A DNA stretch of 64,000 nt from Sphingomonas crusticola (GTDB lineage: Bacteria > Pseudomonadota > Alphaproteobacteria > Sphingomonadales > Sphingomonadaceae): NCBI RefSeq assembly GCF_003391115.1, contig NZ_QTJP01000001.1:2046001-2110000 (forward strand), in the 5' to 3' direction. A program made the position numbers and the translations under genes. Below the pieces are notes generated by a model, which had not been told where the DNA came from, did not search any database, and worked only from the letters and a program-made list of their open reading frames with translations. Of the stretch, positions 5,241 through 37,776 are shown piece after piece (position 1 is the first letter of the stretch; each line of letters opens with the position of its first letter).

Positions 5241-5458
5241 CTTGGCAACTCCGTATTGGGGTGTGCCTCTCGCTGAACCATGTTTTCGTTGTGCACTGCA
5301 GCATTACCCGCCAGGCTAGTTTCTCGGCGATTGAGAAGACGTGTCGGGCGGGTGCGTTGCACGCATGCGGGCGAACACGTGCGCCGACAGCCCGACCATG
5401 TTAGGGGCCCTGAATCGCCGCCGTCACAGCAGACGCGGCAATCCCGCAAGGAATGGTG

Positions 5459-5968
5459 ATGCGCATCTGGATTCTGGGCGTGGCTGCGACGCTGGCTCTG
5501 ACGGGCTGTACGGGCGCCCCCCTGAACTCCATCCCCCTCACCGGCACTTACGATCCTACCAATATCTTCGCCAAGATCATTCGCGGCGAGGCCAAGTCGG
5601 TGAAGGTCTACGAGACCGATCGGGTGCTGGCCTTCATGGATCATGCGCCAGCGTCACCCGGGCATGTCCTCGTCATCTCCAAGGTCAGCCATGCGCGAAC
5701 GCTGCTGGAAATGCACCCGCAGGATTATGACGAGGTCATGGCCGCGGTTCGAAAGGTGGCGTTGGCGGAGGTCAAGGCGCTCGATTTGAAGGGCTTCACC
5801 ATCATCGAGAATAATGGGCTCGGTCAATCGGTGCCGCACCTCCATGTCCACATCATTCCCCGTTACGGCCGCATCCGCATCAAGGAGACGGCCGCGCCAA
5901 TCGCATCCGATGCCCAGCTGGAAGTGATTGCGGCGAAGATCAGGGCCGTGCTGGCGACGATGCCATGA
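5459..5968 (+). CDS. HIT-family (histidine triad) protein with a lipoprotein signal
   Basis: This 169-residue protein contains a complete HIT domain. It starts at YDPTNIFAKIIRGEA, continues with VLAFMDHAPASPGHVLVISK and ends with the histidine triad HLHVHIIPR, the nucleotide hydrolase/transferase active site. Before it lies a 17-residue lipoprotein signal (WILGVAATLALTGC) with lipobox LTGC and Cys17. I chose ATG 5459, which has AAGGA six bases upstream; ATG 5453 abuts the site. HIT proteins are normally cytoplasmic, so the lipobox is unusual. The stop overlaps the truB start (ATGA). Confidence 0.88.
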   Translation: MRIWILGVAATLALTGCTGAPLNSIPLTGTYDPTNIFAKIIRGEAKSVKVYETDRVLAFMDHAPASPGHVLVISKVSHARTLLEMHPQDYDEVMAAVRKVALAEVKALDLKGFTIIENNGLGQSVPHLHVHIIPRYGRIRIKETAAPIASDAQLEVIAAKIRAVLATMP

Positions 5969-6948
5969 CGGGCGCGCCGCTGCATGGCTGGATCATCCTC
6001 GACAAGCCGGTGGGGCTGGGTTCGACGCAGGCGGTCAGCGCGGTCAAGCGCGCCTTGCGGACCGGGGGGCATGGCAAGGCCAAGGTTGGCCACGGCGGCA
6101 CGCTCGATCCGCTCGCCAGCGGCGTGCTGCCAATCGCGATCGGCGAGGCGACCAAGCTGTCCGGGCGCATGCTCGACGCCGACAAGGCGTATGATTTCAC
6201 CATCCGCTTCGGCGAAGAGACAGACACGCTCGACGCGGAGGGCGCGGTCATAGGCAGAAGCGATGTTCGGCCGACGCTGGCGGAGGTCGAGGCAGTACTG
6301 ACCCGCTTTACCGGTCCGATCAGCCAGATACCGCCGGCTTATTCGGCGTTGAAGGTGGACGGGAAGCGGGCCTACGATCTGGCGCGCGCCGGTGAGACGG
6401 TCGAGCTGGCGAGCCGCAACGTGACGATCCACGCGCTCACGGTTCGTCAACCCGGACTTGTTCCGAGGTCCTCCGAGCCACGTGCGTCAGCGCAAGCCGT
6501 AGAATGGATGCCGGAACAAGCCCGGCATGACGGGCTGCACCACGACATCACGCTCTCGGCCCGCGTCTCGAAGGGCACCTACATACGGTCGCTCGCCCGC
6601 GACATCGCTTACGCGCTGGGCACGGTGGGTCACGTGACCATGCTTCGCCGTACCAAAGCGGGCCCCTTCGCCCTTGAATCGGCGATATCGCTGGACATAT
6701 TGGACCAAGCCGCTAAGGACGCGCGGCTGCAGGAGCTGCTCTTGCCGCTGACGGCCGGACTGGACGACATCCCGGTTCTCGCCGTCTCCCCCGATCAGGC
6801 TCAAGCGCTCCGCCAGGGACGCCGGCTTATCGGTCACGCAGCGCCACCAGGTCTCAACCTCGCAATGCTGGGCGATTTGCCCGTCGCATTGGTCGAAGTC
6901 GGAACCGATATTTCGGTGGTGCGCGGTTTCAACCTGATGTCGGAGTGA
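5965..6948 (+). CDS. truB: tRNA pseudouridine(55) synthase TruB
   Basis: This 327-residue enzyme isomerises U55 to pseudouridine in the T-loop of tRNAs. The catalytic Asp48 is in GGTLDPLASG. Other family blocks are KAYDF near residue 72, PPAYSALKVDGKRAYDLAR, and KGTYIRSLARDIAYALG near residue 200. It starts inside the stop of the HIT gene and is followed six bases later by rpsO. Residues about 161-189 (PGLVPRSSEP...MPEQARHDG) have no counterpart in ordinary TruB and are encoded by a palindromic repeat; the frame is kept open and both flanking family blocks are intact. Confidence 0.95.
   Translation: MTGAPLHGWIILDKPVGLGSTQAVSAVKRALRTGGHGKAKVGHGGTLDPLASGVLPIAIGEATKLSGRMLDADKAYDFTIRFGEETDTLDAEGAVIGRSDVRPTLAEVEAVLTRFTGPISQIPPAYSALKVDGKRAYDLARAGETVELASRNVTIHALTVRQPGLVPRSSEPRASAQAVEWMPEQARHDGLHHDITLSARVSKGTYIRSLARDIAYALGTVGHVTMLRRTKAGPFALESAISLDILDQAAKDARLQELLLPLTAGLDDIPVLAVSPDQAQALRQGRRLIGHAAPPGLNLAMLGDLPVALVEVGTDISVVRGFNLMSE
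6446..6531 (+). repeat. Palindromic REP-like element inside truB
   Basis: Arms 6446-6465 and 6512-6531 are inverted repeats matching at 17 of 20 positions (GTCA..CCGG.CTTGTTCCG). The middle is about 46 bases. An intergenic copy at 18710-18794 has nearly identical arms and length (85 versus 86 bases). The element is read through in frame and adds about 29 residues to TruB just before the KGTYIRS block. Confidence 0.8.
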
Positions 6949-7413: not shown

Positions 7414-9798
7414 ATGTTCGATATCAAGAAGACGGAAATCGAGTGGGGCGGCAAGACGCTGACCCTCGAAACGGGGCGCGTCGCCCGCCAGGCTGACGGT
7501 GCGGTCATCGCGACGCTCGGCGAAACGGTCGTGTTGTGCGCGGTCACCGCCGCCCGCTCGGTCAAGGAAGGGCAGGACTTCTTCCCGCTCACCGTTCACT
7601 ATCAGGAGAAATATTCGGCCGCGGGACGCATCCCCGGCGGTTTCTTCAAGCGCGAACGCGGCGCGACCGAGAAAGAGACGCTCACCTCGCGTCTGATCGA
7701 TCGCCCGATCCGACCGCTGTTCCCGGAAGGCTTCTACAACGAGATCAACGTCATCGCTCAGGTGCTGAGCTATGACGGCGAGAACGAGCCCGACATTCTC
7801 GCGATCGTCGCCGCCTCTGCCGCGCTCACCATCTCCGGCGTGCCCTTCATGGGCCCGATCGGCGCGGCCCGCGTCGGTTACATCGACGGCGAATATATCC
7901 TCAATCCGACGCTCGACCAGATCAAGTCGGGCGACCTCGACCTCGTCGTCGCCGCCACCGGCAACGCCGTGATGATGGTTGAATCCGAAGCCAAGGAGCT
8001 TTCGGAAGAGGTCATGCTCGGCGCCGTCGTGTTCGCGCACGATGCGTCGAAGAAGGTCGTCAACGCGATCATCGATCTCGCCGAAAAGGCTGCCAAGGAT
8101 CCGTGGGAACTGACCCAGAGCGACGACAGCGCGCTCAAGAAGCAGGTCCACGACACGATCGGCGCCGGCATTGCCGCCGCCTATAAGATCACGACCAAGG
8201 CCGAGCGCGTTGCCGCCATTGCCGAAGCCAAGGCGCCGCTGAAGGAAGCCTTCGCCGACGCGGACAGCGCGACGAAGCTCAAGGTCGCCAAGCTCGGCAA
8301 GAAGGTCGAGGCCGAGATCGTTCGCGGCCAGATCCTCAATGAGGGCGTCCGCATCGACGGCCGCGACACCAAGACGGTTCGTCCGATCGAGGCGATGGTC
8401 CACTTCCTGCCGCGCACGCACGGTTCGGCTCTGTTCACCCGCGGCGAGACGCAGGCGATCTGCTCGACCACCCTGGGCACCAAGGAAAGCGAGCAGATGA
8501 TCGATGGGCTGACCGGCCTGTCGTATGAGCGCTTCCTGCTCCACTACAACTTCCCGCCTTATTCGGTGGGCGAGGTCGGCCGCTTCGGCGCGCCGGGCCG
8601 CCGCGAAGTCGGCCACGGCAAGCTGGCATGGCGTGCGCTGCACCCCGTGCTGCCGAGCGTCGAGGAATTCCCCTATACGATCCGCGTATTGTCCGACATC
8701 ACCGAGAGCAACGGCTCCTCGTCGATGGCGACGGTCTGCGGTGGTTCGTTGGCCATGATGGACGCGGGCGTTCCGCTCAAGCGTCCGGTCTCTGGCATTG
8801 CCATGGGCCTGATCCTGGAAGGCAAGAAGTTCGCGATCCTGTCGGACATTCTTGGCGACGAGGATCACCTCGGCGACATGGACTTCAAGGTCGCGGGCAC
8901 GTCCGAAGGCATCACCAGCCTGCAGATGGACATCAAGGTCGCCGGCATCACCGAGGAGATCATGAAGGTCGCGCTCGCGCAGGCGAATGAGGGCCGTGCC
9001 CACATTCTCGGCGAGATGGCCAAGGCCCTCGACAGCACACGCACCGAATTGTCCGCCCACGCACCGCGCATCGAAACGATGCAGGTGCCCAAGGACAAGA
9101 TCCGTGAAGTGATCGGCACCGGCGGCAAGGTGATCCGCGAGATTGTCGCCACCACCGGCGCCAAGGTCGACATCGAGGATGACGGCACCGTCAAGATCTC
9201 GTCGTCGGATCCGGCGCAGATCGAGGCCGCGCGCAAGTGGATCGAAGGCATCACGCAGGAAGCCGAAGTAGGCAAGATCTACAACGGCAAGGTCGTGAAT
9301 ATGGTCGATTTCGGCGCGTTCGTGAACTTCATGGGCGGCAAGGACGGCCTGGTTCACATTTCCGAGATCAAGAATGAGCGGGTTGCCAAGGTCTCCGACG
9401 TCCTGACGGAAGGCCAGGAAGTGAAGGTCAAGGTCCTCGAGATCGATCCGCGCGGCAAGGTTCGCCTGTCGATGCGTGTAGTCGATCAGGAAACCGGTGC
9501 CGAGCTGGAGGACACGCGTCCTCCGCGCGAAGCCGGGGATCGTCCGGAGCGCAGCGATCGTGGCCCGCGCCGTGACGGCGAAGGCCGTGGCGACCGTGGC
9601 CCGCGTCGGGATGGCGATCGTGATCGCGGCCCTCGTCGCGAAGGCGGCGATCGTGGTCCGCGTCGCGAAGGTGGCGGCGAGAATCGTGGCGAAGGCCGTG
9701 GCGATCGCGGTCCGCGTCCTGCCCGCACCGAAGGCGGCAATGATGAAGGCCCCGCGCCTGAATTCGCGCCCGCCTTCCTTACCCGCACCGACGACTGA
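7414..9798 (+). CDS. pnp: Polyribonucleotide nucleotidyltransferase (PNPase)
   Basis: This 794-residue phosphorolytic 3'-5' exoribonuclease is a core degradosome enzyme. Two RNase PH-like domains are visible, the second with [28 protein letters not shown] and [27 protein letters not shown] domain ([12 protein letters not shown], near residue 568) and an S1 domain ([28 protein letters not shown]) follow. The C-terminal 75 residues after about 705 are an Arg/Gly/Asp-rich tail of repeated RGDRGPRR units, a likely RNA- or partner-binding region not present in E. coli PNPase. GTGAAGGAA precedes ATG 7414. Confidence 0.98.
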
Positions 9799-18697: not shown

Positions 18698-18709
18698 GCT
18701 CCCGCAACC

Positions 18710-18794
18710 GTCATGCCGGACTTGTTCCGGCACCCACCCGCCCACGAGCGATACGCTTGCTGCGTGGTGTACCCCGGAACAAATCCGGGGTGAC
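18710..18794. repeat. REP-like palindrome, intergenic copy
   Basis: Arms GTCATGCCGGACTTGTTCCGG (18710-18730) and its near-complement ending GGGGTGAC (18774-18794) flank about 43 bases. The element fills the gap between convergent FAD oxidoreductase and hydrolase genes. It is the same family as the copy inside truB and could terminate transcription from both sides. Confidence 0.8.
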
Positions 18795-18809
18795 GATTGA
18801 GAGCCTAGC

Positions 18810-37672: not shown

Positions 37673-37776
37673 GTCACCCCGGCGAACGCCGGGGTCGATC
37701 GTGTCATAAGCAATGCCGCCCAGGTTTCCGTGACGCGCCAAGCTGCCGCATGAACCCCGGCCTAGGCCGGGGTGAC
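37673..37776. repeat. REP-like double hairpin between convergent genes
   Basis: Hairpin GTCACCCCGGC..GCCGGGGTC at 37673-37696 and its partner ACCCCGGCC..GGCCGGGGTGAC at 37754-37776 are also inverted with respect to each other. This is the common sphingomonad REP pair. It lies between the pepF and dienelactone hydrolase stops, where it probably ends both transcripts. Confidence 0.75.

Follow-up and report, generated by a model that had tools for sequence, protein, structure and literature searches.

A CGTC-tagged REP dimer captured in frame by truB of Sphingomonas crusticola and the recurrent filling of the same TruB hairpin across a bacterial family

The closest described relatives of the element analyzed here are the REP sequences with a CGTC tag, which Di Nocera, De Gregorio and Rocco (2013) define as a superfamily that includes the Rickettsia palindromic elements RPE-6 and RPE-4 (PMC3733652). 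According to that paper, CGTC-REPs have no dedicated transposase, and dimers or groups of them located within genes encode 20-30 residues. In three species (E. litoralis, S. alaskensis and S. maltophilia) the gene for tRNA pseudouridine synthase B is reported there to contain REPs, and its R. conorii counterpart to contain RPE-1; their effect in these genes is called unclear, and the gene is presented as one among several targets (PMC3733652). Where genes from one functional category carry REPs, these are stated to occupy different sites, with the exception of recB of two Xanthomonas species (PMC3733652). Elements of this kind are therefore already known, as REPs inside truB, including those of two sphingomonads, have been in print since 2013 (PMC3733652). 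What is new is that several repeat types have been captured repeatedly at a single site. A literature search that reached only a minority of subscription journals did not retrieve any description of truB as a repeat hotspot or of several repeat families filling a single TruB hairpin.

The truB element and its copies in the genome

The truB gene of Sphingomonas crusticola lies at 5965..6948 on the forward strand of the window (the whole stretch of 64,000 nucleotides that was analyzed) and encodes a tRNA pseudouridine synthase B of 327 aa, the only TruB match of the genome. Pfam profiles were matched to residues 38-160 (TruB_N, 5.4e-48) and 208-266 (TruB_C_2, 4.6e-13). Residues 161-190, between both domains and inside the single truB ORF, are encoded by a CGTC-tagged REP dimer captured in frame (6445..6532, forward strand), which was delimited by its sequence and an inverted-repeat search. 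The original prediction had described two inverted arms inside truB that are translated in frame between conserved TruB blocks, and this description was borne out, with the dimer being one base wider on each side. The element measures 88 bp and its tags are outermost (CGTC at 6445-6448, GACG at 6529-6532), so that each unit end carries the tag of the superfamily (CGTC, or TGTC/CCTC). The two arms found by the inverted-repeat search, a decayed left arm (6445..6465, forward strand) and a right arm (6512..6532, reverse strand), are 21 nt each, 86% complementary and spaced by 46 nt. The units of a CGTC-REP dimer should have a stem of 8-9 bp that opens with two A-T pairs, and a loop of 4-5. In the truB element, the right unit (ATGCCGGG-CTTGT-TCCGGCAT) forms, by eye, 7 of 8 pairs, the first of which are A-T and T-A, and the left unit is decayed. 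The gene upstream of truB (5453-5965) encodes a HIT-domain protein whose N-terminus, read from the given start, resembles a lipoprotein signal by eye (LALTGCTG); its true start may lie further in. Judged from their ORFs, the genes downstream of truB are presumably rpsO and pnp.

Within the protein, the insert forms part of a hairpin loop of 36 aa (residues 159-194; 6439..6546, forward strand), which was obtained by loop extraction and lies between the predicted strands 151-160 and 194-201. AlphaFold2 modeling with 31 sequences yielded a mean pLDDT of 88.6. Residues 165-190 were the only run below 50, a very low confidence of the kind seen for disordered loops, and are flanked by confident beta strands. 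In the solved TruB structure 1k8w, which we take to be the E. coli enzyme, the matched parts that flank the insert sit two residues apart. The low pLDDT, the flanking strands and this adjacency are the basis for a prediction that the insert is a disordered excursion from the hairpin tip, and it is translated as a loop that is probably floppy. Such a loop may be surface-exposed and near-neutral, as was originally suggested. The loop RNA folds better than 200 of 200 shuffles (z -4.18), and a neighboring truB segment of the same length gave a z of -0.17.

The arms of the truB element recur in the genome. An intergenic twin with the same arms, which had also been predicted, was located by sequence and inverted repeats at 18709..18795 (forward strand), where no spanning ORF with conserved flanks is listed. 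Its arms extend over 18705-18730 and 18774-18799 (26 nt, 85% complementary), and its left unit (ATGCCGGA-CTTGT-TCCGGCAC) forms 7 of 8 pairs by eye. The truB dimer and its twin have arms and length in common but differ in their middles. A third CGTC-like dimer with another stem (GTCACCCCGGC...GCCGGGGTGAC) is found at 37673..37776 (forward strand), by eye directly behind the end of a reading frame. With 33 inverted pairs of at least 14 nt in the window, an inverted repeat of such strength alone is not rare, and it is the recurrence of the arms that exceeds chance. When up to one mismatch was allowed, the core CCGGACTTGTTCCGG matched the 3.37 Mb genome 15 times, in several cases as head-to-head pairs. 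At two mismatches the reversed control equals the signal (33 vs 34), so that only matches with 0-1 mismatch are informative. A pattern of tag plus stem matched 22 times in the genome, with no match for its reversed control. A looser tag-to-tag pattern gave 118 matches (7 in the control), with true palindromes making up about a quarter of the rows listed, by eye. A chance inverted repeat was ruled out by this recurrence. Among 60 fetched loci, which hold part of the genome's copies, ten strict dimers were counted. Seven of these have no long spanning frame, and the other three (L002, L004, L327) have one that, by our own reading, does not show coding-like G+C at the codon positions on both sides.

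An intact, REP-flanked RAYT gene (Y1_Tnp) was not found in the S. crusticola genome by profile search. The sole Y1-transposase match above the cut-off (G000:C1:604-789; 25.9 bits, profile positions 7-70 of 121) is located at a contig start and contains one internal stop. A RAYT was rejected as the mover of the repeats because this broken match is the only one in the genome.

Filling and turnover of the TruB hairpin

The bacterial family of S. crusticola, which holds Sphingomonas, Sphingobium and the Erythrobacter group, was sampled by an even draw. TruB was matched in 118 of 119 genomes and 115 loops were readable; the remainder comprises G016 and G022 (truB split over two contigs), G082 (place not listed) and G067 (no match). 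A two-arm palindromic element is present in 29 of the 115 family TruBs, in frame in every case, and falls into six arm types termed B (9), A (6), C (5), D (5), A2 (2) and C2 (2). The other loops are short (51 loops, 8-18 aa), contain only a GRPDPYDP segment (26), are long and unassigned (7) or carry a single arm (2). The frame continues into the post-loop motif in all 115, although the motif behind the insert of L160 looks error-ridden. When the same arm scan was applied to 345 TruB segments of equal length outside the loop, no pairs and 8 single arms were obtained, and 192 shuffled loops gave no pairs and 2 singles. A set of 80 named genomes, which is biased as it was chosen by likeness to the S. 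crusticola TruB, contained 32 pairs and 11 single arms. The loop is filled in all seven genomes of the genus (B 4, A 2, C2 1), with a 21-aa B remnant and a half-decayed C2 judged by eye. The proposal that sphingomonads have an in-frame element of this type is thereby supported, but the truB insert is not a one-off: it is one of many fillings of the same site. In G016, both contigs that carry truB end near the loop, as would be expected if a dispersed repeat were located there.

Types A and A2 are CGTC-REPs with different stems. By eye, CTCCC/GGGAG stems are common to B, C and C2, which may be related, and D, which ends in CGTC- or CGCC-like sequences, may be a distant CGTC relative. Given the common stems of B, C and C2 and the CGTC-like end of D, only two kinds are surely unrelated among the six arm types. 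A non-palindromic segment of about 24 residues (SAFATTAGRPDPYDPSAPLELADS; L141-L168 and others) is found at the same hairpin, without a repeat arm in 26 of 115 loops and under stacked elements in others. This GRPDPYDP segment seems to be an insertion of greater age that has become fixed, and in one branch elements are stacked before it (L158, L169, L188, L195, L196, L201, L202).

The filling repeats are themselves dispersed through genomes. Forward plus reverse whole-genome matches of the arm cores were counted for B, D, A, C and A2, with reversed controls of 0-3. The B core reached 223 matches in G066, 141 in G028 and 78 in G027, with 9 (control 3) in G043 and 1 (control 1) in S. crusticola. 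The D core matched 148 times in G042 and the A core 30 times in G050. For the C core 116 matches were found in G042, which correspond to about half as many sites since this core is nearly its own complement. The A2 core matched 10 times in G014 and 20 times in G002, the two A2 carriers of the sample. In G095, the only two B-core matches (at most two mismatches) are both in truB, and truB accounts for two of the three C sites of G050. The truB gene can hold the last recognizable copies of a repeat. A longer residence there than elsewhere is suggested by the sequences of G095 and partly by those of G050, with more decayed copies being possible at other places. A BLAST search of 115 long loops against DNA outside truB gave 176 matches, compared with 2 for three shuffles of each loop. 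A control with conserved truB pieces gave 201, which we put down to unmasked truB halves in split contigs. The TruB of G295 (L365) contains a B-like element, and 13 more stretches of this genome match the query, nearly all in the loop part, which indicates that loop-like peptides are spread through its reading frames.

Outside the family the loop is short. In sister families of the order, 22 loops were read among 31 matched genomes, and all 22 measure 9-14 aa without such an insert. Five of these 22 genomes hold 10-33 CGTC-REP arms yet have short loops, so that genomic REPs are not enough for filling. The class was sampled at close to one genome for each family. Loops were read from 80 of the 131 matched genomes, and none of the 80 contains an arm. 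The loops are 9-15 aa long in 78 of them (L233 and L241 were re-read by eye as 9 and 10 aa), and L230 and L231 have 22-23 low-complexity residues, likewise without an arm. The insert is thus not conserved in distant TruBs, in line with the original prediction. An anciently conserved TruB insert was ruled out by the short or armless loops read in sister families and class.

Selection of an RNA hairpin or of the loop itself was considered as a cause of the filling, for example a transcript hairpin that tunes the processing of truB and the downstream genes, or a loop that contacts RNA, either of which could be met by any palindrome. The elements are inverted pairs, the S. crusticola loop RNA folds well, the downstream genes are presumed to be rpsO and pnp, and the non-palindromic GRPDPYDP segment has been kept at the same place without a repeat arm, all of which would be consistent with such selection. 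However, the 51 short loops among 115 family TruBs indicate that the hairpin is not needed, and filled and short states alternate among close relatives. We regard selection of this kind as improbable.

The turnover of the elements was followed on a single-gene FastTree of 192 TruBs from which the loop had been removed and in which 49 of 184 inner branches are starred. Carriers (n=70) include single-arm rows. A further 17 rows were classed as 'other long'; among them, L063, L078, L088, L089, L149 and L170 resemble decayed B by eye. Presence and absence on this tree require at least 47 changes and type among the 70 carriers at least 33, with gain and loss being indistinguishable. With only the starred branches considered, the changes required are 11 for B, 9 for A, 6 for C2, 5 each for C and D and 3 for A2. 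TruBs whose cores are 93% identical were found to differ as B versus A in one close pair and as B versus a short turn in another. A single ancient insertion whose present variety arose as sequences diverged or as species exchanged truB alleles would agree with the A element of like sequence in S. crusticola and in L340, its relative with the best TruB match (85% identical), and with the clustering of label A on the tree. None of 500 label shuffles was as low for A, compared with 1 for C2 and 34 for C (weak), and B, A2 and D were unclustered. Nevertheless, no resemblance between arms with CGTC tags and arms with CTCCC stems is visible by eye, both kinds are dispersed repeats and even the starred branches require 3-11 changes per type. 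A single origin thus appears extremely improbable.

Excess at the loop, entry points and other targets

A scan that was blind to repeat family was carried out on 86 stretches (1.65 Mb) and detected 29 long inverted repeats, 7 in the truB loop and 22 elsewhere, with 2 in shuffled DNA. Its threshold of 15 was set after a first run at 18, which gave 6 in the loop and 19 elsewhere with spacers below 15 included. If 5% of the DNA, an assumed share, were open to repeats, the 9-codon sites should hold about 0.6 of them, and the occupancy of the loop looks higher than tolerance alone would give. Of the 22 repeats outside the loop, 19 lie in no ORF that is conserved on both sides; L149 is just behind rpsO, L194 may be due to chance and L166 is inside ligA. 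A family-based scan placed 28 of 76 arms in the truB loop, 2 elsewhere in truB and 46 outside truB, a proportion that is partly circular because the arm families were drawn from truB loops. Among 31 elements outside truB, nine have a spanning ORF that is conserved on both sides in some frame. Seven of these are single arms, one of which lies in the ligA gene of L166 and another at the end of the window ORF 7414-9798, and two are dimers (L176, L228) just behind rpsO. Directly behind rpsO, a normal post-gene place, inverted-repeat elements were seen in four genomes (L176, L184, L149, L228). The ligA gene of G089 (NAD-dependent DNA ligase, L166:16844-19246) contains an in-frame D-type repeat near the adenylation domain and, judged by its peptide, a probable second D-type repeat further on. 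This D element demonstrates that truB is not the only target.

The excess fits two readings, of which retention at a tolerant hairpin tip is ranked first and a preference at entry second. Under the latter, palindromic repeats would insert preferentially at the hairpin tip or into its DNA. Besides the excess over other DNA in the family-blind scan, the uniform position at which family A begins (+6 nt in 13 of 15, +9 in 2 of 15) points in this direction, although it also fits shared ancestry or allele exchange, and by eye a D-like piece lies within the right arm of the A element in L340. In many cases the flanks encode VT...VT as GTGACG ... GTCACC, a sequence similar to the CGTC tag, but such a flank would not serve tag-less repeats, and at least two unrelated repeat kinds would have to share the target. 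No sequence-conserved target beside the loop was seen when flanks of close pairs were compared by eye. Furthermore, two frames are used by B, mostly with entry at +2, +3 or +8, and the entry points of D are scattered. Five sister-family genomes that bear 10-33 CGTC-REP arms keep short loops, and the only Y1-transposase match of S. crusticola is partial and interrupted by a stop. An insertion preference is therefore considered unlikely.

We favor, with fair but not full confidence, an in-frame capture at a permissive hairpin tip that has been filled recurrently by repeats of six arm types, which belong to at least two unrelated kinds, the inserts being retained since only in-frame loss is tolerated. 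In S. crusticola, a CGTC-tagged REP dimer has entered the tip of the TruB beta-hairpin, where the first predicted strand ends, in a stop-free frame, and is now translated as about 30 residues that are predicted to be disordered. Across the family, the tip has been filled many times by CGTC-REPs and by repeats with CTCCC/GGGAG stems, which replaced one another or became nested and then decayed. The loop presumably takes inserts without loss of function, and decay would proceed by point mutation and in-frame internal deletion. As only in-frame removal would be viable, copies in truB would outlast intergenic ones, and truB would keep a fossil of repeats that were lost from the rest of the genome. 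A stronger version, in which the hairpin tip is a genuine landing pad that gains or keeps different palindromes at a rate far beyond that of other DNA, coding or intergenic, is possible but doubtful. If it holds, truB continuously documents which repeat families have passed through a given lineage. Repeats in genes are usually read as scattered accidents, and the TruB loop provides a natural and replicated experiment. With it, tolerance can be told apart from target choice and from retention; it also illustrates how protein loops are gained from repeat DNA and offers a marker of past repeat activity. The question of how CGTC-REPs move becomes testable at one known address.

Comparison with known repeat systems

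An inverted unit of two REPs is named BIME, and the truB element shares this arrangement with the REP/BIME elements mobilized by RAYTs. It differs from them in that its genome has only a broken Y1-transposase match. The comparison with Rickettsia palindromic elements in the original prediction proved apt, as the truB element is a CGTC-tagged REP dimer and RPE-6 and RPE-4 are placed in the same superfamily (PMC3733652). Like RPE-1, RPE-4 and RPE-6, it is a palindrome translated inside a gene, and it is likewise inserted in frame. In contrast, the host order is different and RPE-1 is longer (PMC3733652). The likeness to CGTC-tagged REPs, as described there, includes the tag, apparently the stem and loop size, the occurrence as dimers, an alphaproteobacterial host and a mostly intergenic, in some cases intragenic, location (PMC3733652). 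Unlike the CGTC-REPs of that description (PMC3733652), one and the same hairpin tip here takes both CGTC-REPs and tag-less repeats across a bacterial family.
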